DNA of 64,000 bases from the NCBI RefSeq assembly GCF_004349105.1, contig NZ_SMLB01000029.1:1-64000 (forward strand), written 5' to 3'. Shown here one piece after another: positions 19,548-34,734 of this stretch; positions within the stretch are counted from its first letter, which is position 1, and each line of letters opens with the position of its first letter. The DNA comes from Jiangella aurantiaca. Lineage in GTDB: Bacteria > Actinomycetota > Actinomycetes > Jiangellales > Jiangellaceae. The notes under the pieces are model-generated. The model made no database searches. It was not told where the DNA came from and saw only the letters and a program-made list of their open reading frames with translations. The translations under genes and the position numbers were made by a program.

Positions 19548-19718
19548 CGCCGTACCCTTGGGGCACCGAGCGTTCGGCGCCAGGAGGGCCGGGCAGACCG
19601 GCGATGAGAGGGTGTCGGAGGCCTCCTCGACATCGTAGGCGCAAGGCGCCGAGCCAAGGTGACCGTACCTGGGGCCATGCCCGGCCCGACGACATCAGAG
19701 GGACTGGTGGGAGGGGCA

Positions 19719-21380
19719 GTGCCACGACAGGGACCTGTGCTGCTGACCGTCGAGGACGATCCGGCGGTGAGCCGGGCGATCGCCCGCGATCTGCGACGCC
19801 GCTACGGATCGGACCACCGCGTCGTCCGGTCCGAGACCGGAGCCGGCGCGCTGGAGGTCCTGCGCGAGCTGACCCTGCGGGGCGAGCCGACGGCACTCAT
19901 CCTGGCCGACTACCGCATGCCCGGCATGAACGGCATCGACTTCCTCGAGCAGGCCATGGACGTCGTGCCGCAGGCCAAGCGGGTCCTGCTGACGGCGTAC
20001 GCGGACACCCAGGCCGCCATCCGCGCCGTCAACGACATCGACCTCGACCACTACCTCGTCAAGCCGTGGGACCCGCCCGAGGAGCACCTCTACCCGGTCC
20101 TCGACGAGCTGCTGGACCAATGGGCGCGCGACAGCCGGCCGGGCTTCGAGGGCGTCACGCTGCTGGGCCACCAGTGGGCGGCCGAGACCCAGGACCTCAA
20201 GGAGTTCCTGACCAGCAACCAGGTCCCGTACCGGCACCTGCGCGGACCCGAGGGCGCGGCGCTGCAGGAGACCGCGGCCATCCCCGACGAAGCCTTGCCG
20301 GCGGTCATCATGCCCGACGGCGTCGTGCTCACCTGCCCGCCGCTGCGCGACGTCGCGGAGCGGCTGGGCCTGGCGACCACGGCCGGCAGCCCGCTGTACG
20401 ACCTCGTGGTCATCGGCAGTGGCCCGGCCGGGCTCGGTGCGGCCGTCTACGGCGCCAGTGAGGGCCTGCGTACGTTGCTCGTCGACCGCGCCGGCGTGGG
20501 CGGCCAGGCCGCCCGCAGCAGCCTGATCGAGAACTACCTGGGCTTCCCGCAGGGCGTCTCCGGCGCCGAGCTGGCGCAGCGCGCCCGCGACCAAGCGGTC
20601 CGCTTCGACGTCGAGATGCTCACCGCGGCCGCGGCCGTCGACGTCGTCGCGCAGGGCGAGGGACGGGTCGTTCGCTTCGACGATGGCCACGAGGTCACCG
20701 CGCACGCCGTCGTCATCGCCACCGGGGTCTGGTGGTCGCAACTGCCGGCCGAGGGCGCCGACGACTTCGCCGGCCGCGGCATCTACTACGGCGCGTCCGC
20801 GCACGAGGCGCCCGGCTGCAAGGGCGAGGACGTCCACATCGTCGGCGCGGCCAACTCCGCCGGCCAGGCCGCGCTGCACTTCGCCAAGTACGCCAACCGC
20901 GTCGTCATGCTGGTGCGCGGGCCGGACCTGCGGCTGCGGATGTCGGAGTACCTCGTGGAGCGGATCGAGGCCGACCCGCGGATCGAGGTGCGCACCTGCA
21001 CCGAGGTCACCGCGGCCGAGGGCAACGGCCGGCTGGAACGCATCGTCGTCACCGACACCCGCGACGGCGGCACGCAGACGCTGCCCGCGACACGACTGTT
21101 CGTGTTCATCGGCGCCGAGCCGCCGACCTCGTGGCTCAGCGAGGAATTCGCGCGGGACGAGCGTGGTTTTCTCCTGACGGGCCCGGCCCTGCTCGACGAC
21201 GACGGACGGCCGCCGCGCGACTGGCCGCTCGCCCGCACCCCGTACCACCTGGAGTCCAGCGTCCCGGGTGTGTTCGTCGCCGGCGACGTGCGCGCGGAGT
21301 CCGTCAAGCGCGTGGCGTCCGCCGTCGGCGAGGGTGCCATGGCGATCACGCTGGTGCACCGCTATCTGGAGGCGACGTGA
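19719..21380 (+). CDS. Response regulator receiver fused to a thioredoxin-reductase-like flavoprotein lacking the CxxC pair
   Basis: A 553-residue cytoplasmic fusion. Residues ~5-130 are a receiver domain with phospho-acceptor Asp64 in ILADYRMPGMNG and the conserved Lys115 in VKPWD. A linker of ~100 residues with a thioredoxin-like look (LKEFLTSNQVPYRHLRG) follows. Residues ~228-550 are a two-domain FAD/NAD(P) reductase with GSGPAGLGAAVYGASEG near 233 and the closing FVAGDVRAESVKRVASAVGE. Where thioredoxin reductase has its CATC redox pair, this protein reads GASAHEAPGC, so it cannot be a normal thioredoxin reductase. GTG 19719 has GGGAGGGG just upstream; GTG 19659 and ATG 19677 are alternatives. 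It is coupled to the kinase gene that follows. Confidence 0.85.
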   Translation: MPRQGPVLLTVEDDPAVSRAIARDLRRRYGSDHRVVRSETGAGALEVLRELTLRGEPTALILADYRMPGMNGIDFLEQAMDVVPQAKRVLLTAYADTQAAIRAVNDIDLDHYLVKPWDPPEEHLYPVLDELLDQWARDSRPGFEGVTLLGHQWAAETQDLKEFLTSNQVPYRHLRGPEGAALQETAAIPDEALPAVIMPDGVVLTCPPLRDVAERLGLATTAGSPLYDLVVIGSGPAGLGAAVYGASEGLRTLLVDRAGVGGQAARSSLIENYLGFPQGVSGAELAQRARDQAVRFDVEMLTAAAAVDVVAQGEGRVVRFDDGHEVTAHAVVIATGVWWSQLPAEGADDFAGRGIYYGASAHEAPGCKGEDVHIVGAANSAGQAALHFAKYANRVVMLVRGPDLRLRMSEYLVERIEADPRIEVRTCTEVTAAEGNGRLERIVVTDTRDGGTQTLPATRLFVFIGAEPPTSWLSEEFARDERGFLLTGPALLDDDGRPPRDWPLARTPYHLESSVPGVFVAGDVRAESVKRVASAVGEGAMAITLVHRYLEAT

Positions 21381-25409: not shown

Positions 25410-26684
25410 TCAGCCGACTGCGGTGGGCTGCACGACCGACCCGTCGGCCATGCGCAGCCGCAGCGTGCCGACGGCGGTGGCGGCCAGCTCGCCGGCGCGG
25501 TCGCCCTCCGGGTCGACCGCGAGCACGTGGCCGACGCGGTCGTTGTTGTCGCGCGGCCGGCGGACCGCCCCAGGAACGTCGAGCTGCCAGCGGGCGACCG
25601 CCGGGTTCGCGTCCAGCTCGTCGCGGCCGTCGACGCCGGTGACGATGCCGTCGACCGGCGGCAGCACGAACGCGACCGCGGCCGTACCGGTCGCGGTGGC
25701 GTCGAGATCCGGCGTCCGGCCGAGCGCGAGGTCGACCAGCAGCGCCAGCGGGTTCACCCCGGTCACGGTGCGGACCAGGTCGAACACGTAGCCGCCGCCC
25801 TGCCGCGGGTTGATCTCGACGATACGGGGTCCCGACGGCGTCAGGCGTAGCTCGGTGTGGCTCAGGCCGTGGGAGTAGCCGATCGCCGTCAGCGCGGCTC
25901 GGACGTGCTCGGTCACCTCGGCGGCGACGGACGGCGGCAGCGGCGCCGGGAAGACGTGCCCGGCCTCGACGAACGAGGGCGTCACGCTCTTGCCGGTGAT
26001 GCCGAGCACCGTCGTCTCGCCGGCGACGGTGACCGCCTCGACGCTGACCTCGGGCCCCTGGAGGACCTCCTCCAGCAGCAGCCGGCGGACCAGCGGCTGG
26101 TTCCGGGTGTTCCGCTCGACGCCGGTGACCTCGTAGAACGCGTCCTTCAGCGCGGCCTCGCCGTCGACCAGGTGCACCGACGTGCCGGAGTTGAGGTCGA
26201 CCGGCTTCGCGACCAGCGGGAACCCCAGCTCCGCCGCGCCGGCCAGCGCGTCCTCCCACGTCGCGGCGACGGCGAACCGCGGGCCGGGCAGCCCGGCCCG
26301 CTGCAGCACCGTCCGGACCGCGTCCTTGCGCACCGCCCGCCGCATGATGTCCGGCGAGGCACCGGCCAGCCCGAGCATCCGGCTCAGCTCGGCGACCGCG
26401 TCGAGGTAGTAGTCGCAGGTCGTGAGCACGCCGTCGACGCGCCGGCGGCAGACGATGCCGATGACGGCGCCGGTCATTGCGGCGCGGTCGTTCGTGTCGA
26501 CGACGATCACCTCGTCGGCGTCGCGCACCACCGGGTGCGGCGCGCCGTCGACGTCCGGGTACAGGGCCGGGTCCTTGGTGAACAGGATGTAGTCGTGGCC
26601 CAGCTCGCGCAGCAGCGGCGGCAGCGCGAGCCCCGTCGACTGCACCCAGCTCTCCACCATGAGCAGCGTCGCCACGTCAGCCAC
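25410..26684 (-). CDS. ATP-grasp ligase, coupled to a nicotianamine-synthase-like gene
   Basis: A 424-residue ATP-grasp enzyme that should join a carboxylate to an amine or hydroxyl through an acyl-phosphate. Residues ~1-110 form the preATP-grasp domain; the ATP lid region has FPLVAKPVDLNSGTSVHLVD near 152-171, and the magnesium-binding core SGPRIVEINPRQGGGYVFDL is near residues 287-306. The C-terminal ~110 residues are the small domain often seen in L-amino-acid ligases. GTG 26684 lies inside the end of the nicotianamine-synthase-like gene (8-bp overlap). The tight coupling suggests it ligates the product of that enzyme, or an amino acid, into a small peptide-like metabolite, possibly a metal chelator. 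Confidence 0.85.
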   Translation of the reverse strand: MADVATLLMVESWVQSTGLALPPLLRELGHDYILFTKDPALYPDVDGAPHPVVRDADEVIVVDTNDRAAMTGAVIGIVCRRRVDGVLTTCDYYLDAVAELSRMLGLAGASPDIMRRAVRKDAVRTVLQRAGLPGPRFAVAATWEDALAGAAELGFPLVAKPVDLNSGTSVHLVDGEAALKDAFYEVTGVERNTRNQPLVRRLLLEEVLQGPEVSVEAVTVAGETTVLGITGKSVTPSFVEAGHVFPAPLPPSVAAEVTEHVRAALTAIGYSHGLSHTELRLTPSGPRIVEINPRQGGGYVFDLVRTVTGVNPLALLVDLALGRTPDLDATATGTAAVAFVLPPVDGIVTGVDGRDELDANPAVARWQLDVPGAVRRPRDNNDRVGHVLAVDPEGDRAGELAATAVGTLRLRMADGSVVQPTAVG

Positions 26685-27540
26685 CCGCCCGGGCCAGGAT
26701 GGCCGAGTTGATGACGTCGTTCACCGGGTGCACCTCCGCGAGGATCTCGAAGCCGTCGAGAGCGGTCGGCTCGACCAGCGGATAGAGCAGCGTGCGCAGC
26801 CCCCGGGCGCTGCGAACGAGTAGGAGAGCGCCCGGCCGCATCGTTCGCGCGAGCCGGCCGAGGATGCGCCGCTTGGCCTCGGCGGTCTCGCCGACCAGCG
26901 CCGCGAGCACGACGACGTCGTAGCCGGACAGGTCCGCGTCCAGGACGTCGACCTCGCGGAAGCAGAGCGCGTCGTACCCGAGTGCCGCTGCGACCCGGGC
27001 GCCGGCCGCCAGCGCCACCGGGTCGCGGTCGAGGTTGTCGACGTGGACGTCGAGGTCGCCGGCCAGGTGCAGCGAGCTCAACGGCAGCGGGCCGGAACCG
27101 ACGAACGCCAACGACCGCGCCCGCCGTGGCAGCGCCGACGCCAGGATGCCGATCTCCATCCGGCTGAGCTGCCGGTAGTTGCCGAGGTACGGGAACCGAG
27201 CCAGCTCGTCGCGCGGCACCGGGCCGGCGACGATGCGGTTCGCCCAGGCCAGCTCCAGCTCGCCCTCGCCCCGGCCGCACAGCGCGCGCAGTCTCGGGGC
27301 GAGCTCCTGGATCTCGACGTCGTTCAGGACCGCCGGGACGGTCTCGGCGGGAGCGGTGAGCACGAGCCCGACCAGCCGGGCGAACAGCCCGTCGACCTCC
27401 GGCCCGGGACGGAGGTCGTCGAGGCCCGCCAGTTCGCGGTACACGTCGCTCACCGACGCAGTAATGTCGTCCGCCGTGAGCCGGCGACGGTCGGTCAAGT
27501 CGGTTTGACCGATTATGTTGCTAGTGAGACTCATGTTCAT
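26677..27540 (-). CDS. Nicotianamine synthase-like protein
   Basis: A 287-residue member of the nicotianamine synthase family, which links 3-amino-3-carboxypropyl groups taken from S-adenosylmethionine. The SAM-binding motif FVGSGPLPLSSLHL is near residue 145, followed by YDVVVLAALVGETAEAK, RSARGLRTLLYPLVEP and HPVNDVINSAILAR, which align along the whole C-terminal half with plant nicotianamine synthases. The N-terminal region also matches (VSDVYRELAGLDDLRPGPEV). Length fits the plant and bacterial (CntL-like) enzymes. The two early ATGs (27540, 27534) overlap a possible -35 element, so GTG 27453 is a real alternative start. No opine dehydrogenase follows, unlike staphylopine loci. Confidence 0.85.
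   Translation of the reverse strand: MNMSLTSNIIGQTDLTDRRRLTADDITASVSDVYRELAGLDDLRPGPEVDGLFARLVGLVLTAPAETVPAVLNDVEIQELAPRLRALCGRGEGELELAWANRIVAGPVPRDELARFPYLGNYRQLSRMEIGILASALPRRARSLAFVGSGPLPLSSLHLAGDLDVHVDNLDRDPVALAAGARVAAALGYDALCFREVDVLDADLSGYDVVVLAALVGETAEAKRRILGRLARTMRPGALLLVRSARGLRTLLYPLVEPTALDGFEILAEVHPVNDVINSAILARAGG
27492..27511. promoter_or_regulatory. Inverted repeat and possible promoter at the 5' end of the nicotianamine-synthase-like gene
   Basis: CGGTCAA and TTGACCG form a 7-bp inverted repeat with a 6-base loop. Immediately upstream on the minus strand lie CATAAT (27512-27517) and, 16 bases further, TGAACA (27534-27539), a plausible -10/-35 pair. The repeat would then sit at the transcription start, the usual place for a repressor site. 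It is unusually AT-rich for this genome. Confidence 0.4.
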
Positions 27541-27606
27541 CGCGGCTGATCATGGCACAGACGAGTGCCGCCGCGCTGACGAACACGCGAAGAACCGCCG
27601 CCGGGC

Positions 27607-28365
27607 TCAGCCCTGCTCGGTCGGGACGAGAATCAGCTCGGCCACGTTGAGCCGAGCCGGCACGGCGACGGCGTACGCGATCGCCTCGGCGATGTCGTCG
27701 GAGGTGATCGTCTCCATCGACCCACGCCATTCCGCCAGCCGCTCCCTGTTGGCGCCGTCCAGCATCCCGTCGCCCAGCTCGGTCGGGACGAGCCCTGGTT
27801 CGACGTTCTTGACCCGGACCCGGCGGGGCCCGAGCTCGGCTCGCAGGTTCCGGGTCAGGTGCGCGACGGCGGCCTTGGTCGCGTCGTAGACGGCGTAGTG
27901 CGGGAAGACCTGGTGTCCGCCGATCGACCCGACGTGGACCAGGTCGGCCGGGCCGCCATCGGCCGCGGCGGCGATGAGATCGTCGGCGAAGGCGCGGCCC
28001 GTGTAGAGCAGGCCGTTGACGTTCGTCGCGATCATCTGGTCCCACTCGCGGGTGTCGGCCGCCTCGAACGGCGCGGCCTGCATGACACCGGCGTTGGCGA
28101 CCACGAGGTCGGCGCGGCCCAGTTCGGCGCGGACGGTGGAGGCCGCGGCAGACAGCGCCTGGTGATCGGTCACGTCGACGGGGAGCGCGAGCGCGCCGAT
28201 CTCCGTGACGAGTGCCTTCAGCCGGTCCTCACGGCGGCCGACGACGGCGACGGCGGCACCGTCGGCGGCGAGCCGGCGGGCCGTCGCCTCACCGATCCCG
28301 CTCGTCGCGCCGGTGACCACCGCGACGCGGCCGGCCAGTCTGTCAGTGCTCTGTGCTGTAGTCAT
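27607..28365 (-). CDS. Short-chain dehydrogenase/reductase (YdfG-like)
   Basis: A 252-residue classical SDR. The cofactor motif TGATSGIG is near residue 17, the NAG motif VVANAGVM near 90, the catalytic Ser in HVGSIGGHQ and the YDATK Tyr-x3-Lys element near 160. ATG 28365 is preceded by GGTGGAGAC. It is divergent from an MmyB-type regulator, an arrangement seen repeatedly in actinobacteria, and is probably controlled by it. The nicotianamine-synthase-like gene follows 66 bases downstream on the same strand, so read-through is possible. Related enzymes reduce serine, 3-hydroxy acids or carbonyl toxins. Confidence 0.87.
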   Translation of the reverse strand: MTTAQSTDRLAGRVAVVTGATSGIGEATARRLAADGAAVAVVGRREDRLKALVTEIGALALPVDVTDHQALSAAASTVRAELGRADLVVANAGVMQAAPFEAADTREWDQMIATNVNGLLYTGRAFADDLIAAAADGGPADLVHVGSIGGHQVFPHYAVYDATKAAVAHLTRNLRAELGPRRVRVKNVEPGLVPTELGDGMLDGANRERLAEWRGSMETITSDDIAEAIAYAVAVPARLNVAELILVPTEQG

Positions 28366-28481
28366 GTCTCCACCGTCGGCCCGGACGAACGGTCCAACCA
28401 GACCGCGTGACGACCAGGAGGACCGACCCTGGGAGTCGCACGGCCACCCAGCGGCGCCGGCCGCGGTCATACGCTCATGGC

Positions 28482-29351
28482 ATGGCTGATGGTGACAACC
28501 GGCTCGGCGAATACCTGCGGGCGCGGCGCGAGCTCGCCCGCCCGGCCGACGTCGGGCTGCCCGACGGTCACGGCCGGCGGCGGGTGCCAGGGCTGCGCCG
28601 CGAGGAGGTCGCGATGCTGGCCGGCGTCAGCGCCGACTACTACGTCCGCCTCGAGCAGGGCCGCGACAAGCATCCGTCCGAGCCGGTCATCGAGTCGCTG
28701 GCCCGGGTGCTCGGCCTCGACGACGACGCCGTCGCCCACCTGCGCGAGCTGGCCCGCCCGGCCACGCGGCGGCGCCGGCCGCACCCGCGGCCGGAACGAG
28801 TGAGCCCGGGCGCGGCGCGGCTGATCCAGAGTTGGGCTTTCACGCCGGCGCTCGTGGTGGGCCGGTACCTCGACGTGCTGGCGGCCAATCCGCTGGCCGC
28901 CGCGCTCAACTCGTGCCAGCGCCCGGGCGCCAACCAGGTGCGCTCGTTCTTCCTCGACCCCGTAGCGCGCGATGTCTACCCGGACTGGGAGGCGCTCGCC
29001 GCCGACACCGTCGCCAGCCTGCGCGCCGCCGCCGGTGCCGACCTCGACGACCCGCGGCTCACCGAGCTGGTCGGCGAGCTGTCGCTGAAGAGCGAGGTGT
29101 TCCGCCGGCTCTGGGCCCGCCACGACGTGCGCGCGAAACTGGCCGGCACCAAGCGGTTCCGGCATCCGATGGTCGGCGAGCTCACGCTGGAGTACGAGAC
29201 CCTGGCCGTCACCAGCGCGCCCGGCCAGCTGGTGATCGCCTATCACGCGGAACCGGGCAGCCCGTCGGAGCAGGCGCTCGCGCTGCTCAGCAGCACCATC
29301 TCCCCGGCGGTGGCCGGAAATCCCGCTGCGGCCGACCACACGCGCATGTGA
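28482..29351 (+). CDS. XRE/MmyB-like transcriptional regulator with ligand-binding domain
   Basis: A 289-residue helix-turn-helix regulator. Residues ~10-85 form a Cro/C1-type HTH (PGLRREEVAMLAGVSADYYV), and residues ~105-270 form the MmyB-like ligand-binding domain, a PAS-related pocket that in a solved member holds a fatty acid (SWAFTPALVVGRYLDVLAAN). ATG 28482 is the first Met before the HTH. It is divergent from the SDR gene across 116 bases and probably represses it. The family is very abundant in actinobacteria; the ligand here is unknown. Confidence 0.88.
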   Translation: MADGDNRLGEYLRARRELARPADVGLPDGHGRRRVPGLRREEVAMLAGVSADYYVRLEQGRDKHPSEPVIESLARVLGLDDDAVAHLRELARPATRRRRPHPRPERVSPGAARLIQSWAFTPALVVGRYLDVLAANPLAAALNSCQRPGANQVRSFFLDPVARDVYPDWEALAADTVASLRAAAGADLDDPRLTELVGELSLKSEVFRRLWARHDVRAKLAGTKRFRHPMVGELTLEYETLAVTSAPGQLVIAYHAEPGSPSEQALALLSSTISPAVAGNPAAADHTRM

Positions 29352-29638: not shown

Positions 29639-30517
29639 CTAGCTGCGGCCGTGAGCGAGCAGCGTCCGCACCGCCCACACCGTCTGGTAGCCGCGCCACT
29701 CCAGGGCGCCGGCCGCCGACGCCGAGGCGAAGTCGACGATCCAGCCGCCGTCGTCCTGCTGCAGCCCCTCCAGCCGGTCGAGGTCCTTCTCGACGGCGTC
29801 CGGGTCGAGCAGTGCCCGCAGCGGCCCGCCGGGCTCCGGCGACAGGTCGAGCAGGTGCATCGCCTCGCCCTCGATGCCGCCCTCGACCGGGACGCCGCCG
29901 TCGGCCGGAACCAGGCGGCTGAGGCGCTCCAGCTGGGCGGCCGCCTCGGGCCGGCTGTCGTGGACGGCGTCGAGGAAGACCAGCGAGAACATCAGCTCGT
30001 GGGCGCGCGGCCGCTCGGTCGCGGCGATGGCACGCAGGCAGAAGTCGGCGGCGCGCTCCAGCCAGGGGTGCCCGGCGACGACGGGGTCCAGGCGGGCCGC
30101 GCGGTGGGCCTGGCCGGCGACCGCGCTGGTGATCTGCAAGGACGATTCCGACGGGTCGGCGCCGATCCACCAGTGCGAGGTGCCGGCGGGTTCGGTGACC
30201 GGCAGCGCGAACGGCAGCCCGCCGTCGGGCAGCGTCACCGACGCCAGCCAGTCGCACAGCGGGCCGGCGAGGCCACCGTCGCCGGGGCCGGTCTCGGCCA
30301 GCACCTCGAACGCGTGCAGCGCGGCGCCGGGCTGGCTCTCCGGTGAGCGCAGGTCCGGCTCGAGGCCCCAGCCGAAGCCGCCGTCGGGGTTGCGGTAGCC
30401 GGCCAGCGCGGCCAGCGTCGCCGTACGGTCGCCGGAGCCGGTCAGCAGGGCGAACCGGAGCCGGTCGAGCTGGCGGGCGTGGCCGGCCATGAACGCGGAA
30501 GCAGCGGTGATGTCCAT
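29639..30517 (-). CDS. Prenyltransferase/squalene-cyclase-fold protein of unknown function
   Basis: A 292-residue protein with repeated QW-like elements: NPDGGFGWGLEPD near residue 42, PDGGLPFALP near 98, DGGVPVEGG near 208 and QDDGGWIVDF near 255. These mark the alpha/alpha toroid of terpene cyclases and protein prenyltransferases. The DxDD cyclase motif and the zinc ligands of prenyltransferases are not evident, so an enzyme activity cannot be claimed. It follows the MFS gene by 49 bases on the same strand, at the end of the ECF sigma operon. Confidence 0.7.
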   Translation of the reverse strand: MDITAASAFMAGHARQLDRLRFALLTGSGDRTATLAALAGYRNPDGGFGWGLEPDLRSPESQPGAALHAFEVLAETGPGDGGLAGPLCDWLASVTLPDGGLPFALPVTEPAGTSHWWIGADPSESSLQITSAVAGQAHRAARLDPVVAGHPWLERAADFCLRAIAATERPRAHELMFSLVFLDAVHDSRPEAAAQLERLSRLVPADGGVPVEGGIEGEAMHLLDLSPEPGGPLRALLDPDAVEKDLDRLEGLQQDDGGWIVDFASASAAGALEWRGYQTVWAVRTLLAHGRS

Positions 30518-33892: not shown

Positions 33893-34734
33893 GCACCGTC
33901 ACCGCCACCCGGCCGACACCGGCCGAGCTGAGCCCGCACGTCGGCGTCGGCGAGGGCATCAGGCAGACCATGACGCTGGCCTGGCGCACCATCGTCCAGG
34001 TCCGGCACAACCCGTGGGAGCTGGGCGACTTCAGCATCCAGCCGATCATGTTCGTGCTGCTGTTCACCTACGTGTTCGGCGGCGCCATCGCCGGGTCGAC
34101 AGGCGAATACCTCACGTTCGCCCTGCCCGGCATCATCGTGATGAACATGCTGTTCATCACCATGTACGTCGGCACCGGGCTGAACATCGACCTCACCAAG
34201 GGCGTGTTCGACCGGCTGCGCTCGCTGCCCATCGCCCGGTGGGCGCCGATGGCCGGCCGCATCATCGCCGACCAGGTGAAGCAGGCATGGTCGATCTTCC
34301 TGCTGCTGGTCATCGGCTTCATCCTCGGCTTCCGCATCGGCACCGACGTCTGGTCGCTGCTGGCCGCTGTCGGGCTGATGCTGGTGTTCGCACTGGCGTT
34401 CTCGTGGGTATCGGTGCTGGTCGGTGTGCTGGCGAAGGATCCTGAGAAGGTGCAGCTGTTCGGGTTCACGGCGCTGTTCCCGGTGACGTTCGTCAGCAAC
34501 GTCTTCGTGCCCACGAACACCATGCCGAGCTGGCTGCAGCCAATCGTCGAGGCCAACCCGGTCACCATCCTGTCCGACGCCTGCCGGGCCCTCATGGTCG
34601 GCGACGACACCGCCGGAACCCAGTGGCACGTCGCCTCGGCCACCACGCCGGCCATCCAGTCGATGATCTGGGCGGCCGCCATCGCCGCGGTGTTCGCGCC
34701 GCTCTCCGTCTGGGCGCTGCGCCGCAAGGTCTGA
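33889..34734 (+). CDS. DrrB-type ABC-2 exporter permease
   Basis: A 281-residue membrane protein with about six helices and the ABC-2 signature region around NMLFITMYVGTGLNIDLTKG and FDRLRSLPIARW. The late SNVFVPTNTMPSWLQPIVEA segment before the last helices is typical of DrrB and daunorubicin-resistance-type permeases. It starts at ATG 33889, overlapping the ATPase stop, after GGGAGGC. The two subunits would form a homodimer-of-heterodimers exporter. The substrate is not shown by the context. Confidence 0.9.
   Translation: MSTVTATRPTPAELSPHVGVGEGIRQTMTLAWRTIVQVRHNPWELGDFSIQPIMFVLLFTYVFGGAIAGSTGEYLTFALPGIIVMNMLFITMYVGTGLNIDLTKGVFDRLRSLPIARWAPMAGRIIADQVKQAWSIFLLLVIGFILGFRIGTDVWSLLAAVGLMLVFALAFSWVSVLVGVLAKDPEKVQLFGFTALFPVTFVSNVFVPTNTMPSWLQPIVEANPVTILSDACRALMVGDDTAGTQWHVASATTPAIQSMIWAAAIAAVFAPLSVWALRRKV

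Follow-up and report, generated by a model that had tools for sequence, protein, structure and literature searches.

What does an actinobacterium make with a nicotianamine synthase whose gene abuts that of an ATP-grasp ligase? The question arises from a 64,000-nucleotide stretch of Jiangella aurantiaca DNA (the window; RefSeq assembly GCF_004349105.1, contig NZ_SMLB01000029.1, positions 1 to 64,000), which is contig 24 of 102 in a 6.6-Mb genome. On its reverse strand lie a gene for a 287-amino-acid nicotianamine synthase (NAS; 26677..27540), plant-type by its residues, and a gene for a 421-amino-acid ATP-grasp ligase of the L-amino-acid-ligase type (25410..26675). We see an even chance that the two form a zinc-responsive unit that makes a nicotianamine-type chelator and joins it, through the ligase, to another amino acid. 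No description of an NAS/ATP-grasp pair was found in the literature searched, from which most subscription papers were missing.

The product of the first gene matched PF03059 with 213.4 bits, against a family cutoff of 27.1 (E = 5.1e-63), across nearly the whole model (profile positions 8 to 270 of 276). The initial annotation of this region, made from the sequence alone, had called it a full-length NAS homolog, and that description stands. A genome-wide search found no other NAS in the window genome. Synthase identity to the window protein was 82 to 84% at five of six Jiangella loci and 74% at the sixth. We also aligned the protein with Arabidopsis NAS1 (AtNAS1), using a reference sequence validated at C69, E73, E77, Y106, and positions 206 to 209; identity was 36% over 272 amino acids (E = 1.2e-53). 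AtNAS1, at 320 amino acids with a C-terminal extension, is the longer of the two.

Published work on AtNAS1 makes it possible to say which type of synthase this is. In that study, E77 and Y106 are reported as essential and equivalent to residues of the archaeal NAS-like protein MtNAS; E73 and 206-VGMD-209 are essential too and, among the NAS proteins compared, kept only in the plant ones; and C69 is dispensable (PMC10248798). Equivalents of C69, E73, E77, and Y106, together with a VGxx insertion, were present in all 20 synthases that we found in the Jiangella family. When three other actinobacterial synthases (from genomes G290, G098, and G647) were added, the catalytic Glu and Tyr (AtNAS1 E77/Y106; MtNAS E81/Y107), E73, and the VGxx tetrad were each found in 23 of 23, although the last two letters of the tetrad vary and are never exactly those of VGMD. 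The synthases of G098, G647, and a Halocatena plasmid have C, E, E, and Y plus VGxx, and that of G290 has Ser at the C69 place. MtNAS matched the window synthase at E = 2.2e-13 (structures 3fpe and 3fpf; a variant was deposited as ThermoNicotianamine Synthase) and shares the catalytic pair, but it has Y, G, E, and Y at the four places and thus lacks the E73 equivalent, as well as the tetrad. The active-site alignment that the initial annotation had proposed therefore found the known synthase residues intact. By the residues tested, the window synthase is of the plant type, and for this reason its product is expected to be nicotianamine or a close analog, not a one-step aminocarboxypropyl amino acid. 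It differs from plant enzymes in its length, in a VGET or VGDT tetrad in place of VGMD, in the adjoining ligase gene, and in a Zur-like operator.

These residues bear on a different pathway, in which the product would be an opine metallophore like staphylopine or pseudopaline, with its dehydrogenase encoded elsewhere in the genome. Opine zincophore clusters are known in actinobacteria, and CntL has also been termed a nicotianamine synthase (PMC7438024). The CntL/CntM systems also involve the aminocarboxypropyl transfer from S-adenosylmethionine (SAM) that is predicted for the window synthase (PMC7438024). However, CntL is very distant from it (E = 0.11), and with plant-type residues in place the likeness to CntL that had been proposed did not hold up. 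The opine dehydrogenase model PF10100 found no match in any of the 22 genomes of the Jiangella family, in a search whose control was also silent. Among 393 genomes of the class it matched one, G249, which lies outside the family; the model is therefore able to detect opine dehydrogenases. No staphylopine-type dehydrogenase was thus seen beside the synthase, and the absence of an adjacent one, noted initially, extends genome-wide in the family as far as PF10100 shows. We rejected the opine reading, which is largely refuted by these results and in our judgment extremely improbable.

The gene pair is conserved in the family. Among 60 relatives the NAS gene was found in 20, all of them in the Jiangella family, where it occurs in 20 of 22 genomes; completeness is 93 to 100% for these 20 but 75% and 81% for the two that lack the gene. 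Across the class, 22 of 393 genomes carried NAS, the two beyond the family being G290 and G098, and a phylum search added G647. In that search, a cutoff of E <= 0.001 admitted 15 of 396 genomes, of which only the window genome (G000), G647, and G098 gave strong matches (E <= 1.3e-50) to the window synthase; we dropped the other 12 (E from 1.9e-6 to 9.1e-4), which we regarded as generic methyltransferase matches. The ligase gene lies directly downstream of the synthase gene in all 20 NAS-bearing family genomes, and its product is 56 to 94% identical to the window ligase in the other 19. The pair thus came through a conservation check in genomes that lack a PF10100 opine dehydrogenase. When neighborhoods from 14 of the 20 family genomes (window region included) and from G290, G098, and G647 were clustered gene by gene, every other protein cluster was confined to 8 or fewer of the 17 stretches. 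The frame caller used for clustering merged or missed some NAS frames, and adjacency was therefore taken from a separate locus comparison. Other candidates for conserved neighbors (an SDR protein, an XRE regulator, the 29639-30517 frame, a major facilitator superfamily [MFS] protein, and PhoD) were set aside, each being present in subsets only and at changing distances.

At the junction itself the two genes nearly touch. In the window it reads TGA-C-GTG, and the gap between the synthase stop and the conserved ligase start is 1 nt in 15 family genomes and 2 nt in 4; in G021, the synthase frame extends 16 nt beyond the ligase start. Relatives begin the ligase with M(A/S)TLLM, which in the window corresponds to the GTG at 26675. 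The initial annotation had described an 8-bp overlap. Abutting genes were confirmed, but the overlap depends on a GTG at 26684 that is in the ligase frame and unconserved; the conserved start is the one at 26675. Translational coupling of the putative operon is likely. The 424-amino-acid frame that begins at the upstream GTG (25410-26684, reverse strand) matched ATP-grasp_4 (61.2 bits) and LAL_C2 (52.4 bits), with a further match to ATPgrasp_N, and the nearest solved structure is that of the L-amino acid ligase BL00235 (3vot; E = 2.7e-26). Eight residues are invariant in 19 aligned ligases (K160, E205, E212, K232, E278, E290, N292, and R294), of which all except E212 are presumably ATP/Mg residues. 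In domain set and ATP-grasp residues the protein belongs with L-amino acid ligases such as BL00235 and BacD (LAL_C2), from which it differs in having an NAS partner gene.

Adjacency also bears on whether the ligase would act on the synthase product. The ligase could act on something unrelated and merely be coregulated with the synthase: its closest kin work in another cluster without an NAS gene, and close homologs of it are missing from the NAS genomes G290, G098, and G647. We consider this unlikely, since the two genes have stayed tightly adjacent in 20 genomes (a gap of 1 to 2 nt in 19 and an overlap in 1) while their other neighbors changed.

A link to metal, at which the initial annotation could only guess, now has evidence, first of all at the 5' end of the synthase gene. 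There, a Zur-box-like 15-mer, TGAACATGAGTCTCA (27525..27539, reverse strand), overlaps the start codon. The Zur motif of Streptomyces coelicolor is given as tGaNNatSatNNtCa (PMC5472717), and the box fits 10 of the 11 specified positions. The site is present with this fit in 20 of 20 genomes, at or upstream of the synthase start, so that each has a Zur-like box near the promoter, as a Zur regulon member would. An anchored comparison of the 20 genomes also revealed a promoter-like element, TGTGC-CATGAT (27549..27559, reverse strand), which resembles an extended -10 sequence, ends 8 nt before the ATG, and is conserved upstream of the synthase as tgtg.ca..at. Its position suggests a leaderless transcript that would start at or near the ATG.

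Zur-like boxes were scanned for with the consensus TGANAATNATTNTCA, allowing at most 2 mismatches. Such sites occurred at 22 of 30 ZnuA loci and at 8 of 10 loci of a ligase-containing sister cluster described below. Of these 30 sites together, 29 (9 of them distinct) went into a Zur matrix, with the NAS sites left out. Among 496,906 positions from 23 stretches, 25 reached or exceeded the NAS score under this matrix. The NAS site itself accounted for 20 of them, once in each genome; 2 fell in the G290 synthase region; another 2 were at the G647 genes for ZnuA and ArsR; and the last was at L048:14355. In the window genome, a ZnuA/ABC/ABC-3 operon (znuABC) and a divergent Fur-family gene (PF01475, 105.7 bits) share the box TGACAATGGTTGTCA. 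G013 belongs to the family but lacks the synthase; there, TGAACATGAATGTCA precedes znuA and differs by one base from the site found in the more distantly related members. An exact 16-mer searched in viral contigs gave 31 scattered matches, which were uninformative and were not used.

Could the conserved 5' sequence instead be a leader peptide, or some other RNA or protein signal (MNMSLT/MNMNLI), leaving the link to metal indirect? When sequences were anchored on the 5' end, ATGAACATGAGTCTCA was found at the synthase start in 14 of 20 genomes. In six (G012, G015, G017, G019, G020, and G021), ATGAACATGAATCTCA lies farther upstream, 107 to 221 nt from the first synthase codon that could be aligned, and opens a separate short frame (MNMNLI..., 25 to 52 codons), as a leader might. 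The imperfect match to Zur boxes would also fit such a signal. Nevertheless, the constraint is on nucleotides and extends to A or T at third positions, which these genes seldom use. Among the 12 Jiangella-genus genes (G000 to G011), the first 14 synthase codons had 98% third-position identity and 64% GC at third positions, compared with 69% and 96% for 80 core codons, and the best 14-codon core window reached 83%. The near-identical 15-mer before znuA in G013 and the strong boxes at the G290 synthase likewise speak against a leader, which we regard as quite unlikely. The box is apparently a zinc (Zur) operator, predicted from its sequence and constrained at the nucleotide level.

Two further observations were made at loci of this comparison. 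At L048, L050, L052, L055, L057, and L059, the upstream MNMNLI frame carries the box, and the same stretch in Jiangella is the synthase N terminus (MNMSLT). At L048:14300-14560, a Zur-like site, AGAGAATGATTATCA, is followed by TTAGGC..GCCTAA-like repeats, which we take to resemble iron-regulator boxes.

Beyond the family, two of the three other actinobacterial synthases are near zinc- or oligopeptide-type importers. At the G290 locus (L060:9618-16905), the synthase gene is divergent from an operon that encodes an SBP_bac_5 protein, a permease, an MFS protein, and two ABC ATPases, one of which carries the C-terminal domain of oligopeptide transporters; two strong Zur-like boxes, CGAAAATGATTTTCA and TGATAATCATTTTCG, separate this operon from the synthase core. 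In G647 (L063:4499-11766), the synthase gene is ~2.4 kb from ZnuA, ABC-3, and ABC ATPase genes and ~1 kb from that of an ArsR-type regulator, with an IS4/5-type transposase fragment between it and the znu-type genes and Zur-like sites on both of its sides. Near the Halocatena plasmid synthase (36.6% identity) no ligase or metal transporter was annotated, and an ArsR/SmtB gene lies ~5 kb away.

Whether the chelator would leave the cell is a separate matter. Among nine window neighbors scanned between 19659 and 33892, there was no metal transporter or nonribosomal peptide synthetase, in keeping with what had been noted from the sequence; two of the nine are transporter parts (the MFS protein and a DrrA-type ABC ATPase) with no substrate assigned. 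The pair might make an intracellular zinc buffer, as nicotianamine is in plants, with the ligase adding an amino acid so as to retain or tune the chelator. In favor of this, no importer or exporter was found next to the pair across all the genomes, and nicotianamine is reported to be central to metal homeostasis in plants (PMC10248798). On the other side, the oligopeptide-type importer and MFS genes by the G290 synthase and in the ligase sister cluster suggest secretion and reuptake in relatives, and we judge a purely internal role rather unlikely.

That sister cluster emerged from the ligase's own relatives. Its best matches outside the family were in Streptomyces and Embleya (41 to 46% identity), Rhodococcus (39%), and other genomes of the class (41 to 46%). 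We compared 11 loci of ligase kin, namely, four of 280 plasmid hits and seven genome loci. Ten of them (L095 to L104) share one gene order: ligase, DUF364, pyridoxal phosphate (PLP) enzyme, epimerase, MFS, methyltransferase, SBP_bac_5, and permease; the eleventh, L105 (35% identity), does not. The best solved match of the PLP enzyme is the siderophore enzyme SbnA (4.2e-42). DUF364 bears the family name "putative heavy-metal chelation," and one of the two proteins scanned fell just under its cutoff. The Zur-like boxes, seen at 8 of these 10 loci, lie upstream of the ligase. The cluster looks like an undescribed zincophore pathway, predicted for Streptomyces, Embleya, Rhodococcus, and others, and because it does, the ligase lineage itself is suggested to build metal chelators. 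It is distinct from the Jiangella pair, with many more genes and, in the stretches compared, no NAS. DUF364 had no match in any of the 22 family genomes, which rules out that the sister cluster is simply split across those genomes. The genome G249 (L104, L179) carries both this cluster and a staphylopine-type opine dehydrogenase.

The sister-cluster methyltransferase was considered as a hidden NAS or azetidine synthase and rejected, given its ordinary methyltransferase domains in Pfam and best solved matches that are mostly N-methyltransferases. A related proposal concerns the window synthase, which might supply an unusual amino acid, such as an aminocarboxypropyl amino acid or azetidine-2-carboxylate, for the ligase to turn into a dipeptide with another role, e.g., as an antimetabolite. 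L-Amino acid ligases do make bioactive dipeptides. In addition, one report places ATP-grasp genes among the neighbors of azetidine-2-carboxylate synthases (PMC11794875). The same source, however, likens the azetidine synthases AzeJ and VioH to class I methyltransferases (PMC11794875), whereas the window protein is an NAS by Pfam and by its residues. Neither the zinc-type operator nor the metal-linked relatives fit this proposal, which we hold to be very unlikely.

Several observations weigh against a zinc-responsive chelator unit. The NAS boxes score 13.5 to 14.9, below the G013 znuA site (16.0) and the G290 and G647 sites (18.8 to 27.3). With at most 1 mismatch, the published consensus has at least 114 matches in the window genome, against 11 for a reversed control, and the window itself holds a second match at 34142 (2 seen versus 0.15 expected). 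One Zur-like site that was inspected, G000:C25:413, falls within a frame that encodes an ABC permease domain and was taken as chance. With so many near-matches and the lower box score, the case for Zur is built on the conservation of the box and on its znuA counterpart, and no single site carries it. The tetrad of the synthase (VGET, VGDT, or another VGxx) is not identical to that of plants. The G098 synthase has no adjoining ligase, no box within 2 mismatches, and no evident metal gene among neighbors read by eye. There is no close ligase homolog anywhere in G290, G098, or G647 (best E = 3.5e-11), and the synthase therefore occurs without the ligase, just as the ligase kin work without NAS in the sister-cluster stretches compared. 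Finally, no transporter was found adjoining the pair in all genomes.

With these points taken into account, the zinc-responsive unit might operate as follows. When zinc is plentiful, Zur would bind the 15-bp box at the start of transcription and translation and block expression of the pair. When zinc is scarce, the synthase would condense aminocarboxypropyl units of SAM into nicotianamine or an analog, with release of methylthioadenosine, as its match to the residues of plant enzymes implies. The ligase, judging from its family, adjacency, and conservation, would then activate a carboxylate with ATP and form an amide between the nicotianamine-type product and an amino acid. The resulting modified zinc chelator might serve as a zincophore, leaving the cell and returning by way of transporters encoded elsewhere, or stay inside as a zinc buffer. 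Several lines of evidence point to the steps of Zur repression and nicotianamine synthesis, and fewer to ligation. A bolder version, which we advance tentatively, is that true nicotianamine made under Zur control is converted by the ATP-grasp enzyme to an amide-linked conjugate representing a new class of zinc chelator and that the same ligase lineage has been recruited into a second, multigene zincophore cluster in Streptomyces and Rhodococcus.

Two other features of the window were recorded. At 27607-29351, an SDR oxidoreductase gene and, divergent from it, one for an MmyB-like regulator occur together in several Jiangella genomes, at varying distances from the NAS pair. The frame at 19659-21380 encodes a response-regulator receiver domain fused to a pyridine-nucleotide-disulfide oxidoreductase.

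Nicotianamine is a central chelator of metals in plants. What its synthase does in bacteria would become apparent from an operon like this one, in which NAS is joined by a putative tailoring ligase and a likely zinc operator. A survey based on opine dehydrogenases itself states that zincophores without such genes escape its view (PMC7438024). Through the NAS/ligase unit, a new chelator would come within reach, and genomes could be mined for zincophores whose pathways lack opine dehydrogenase genes.

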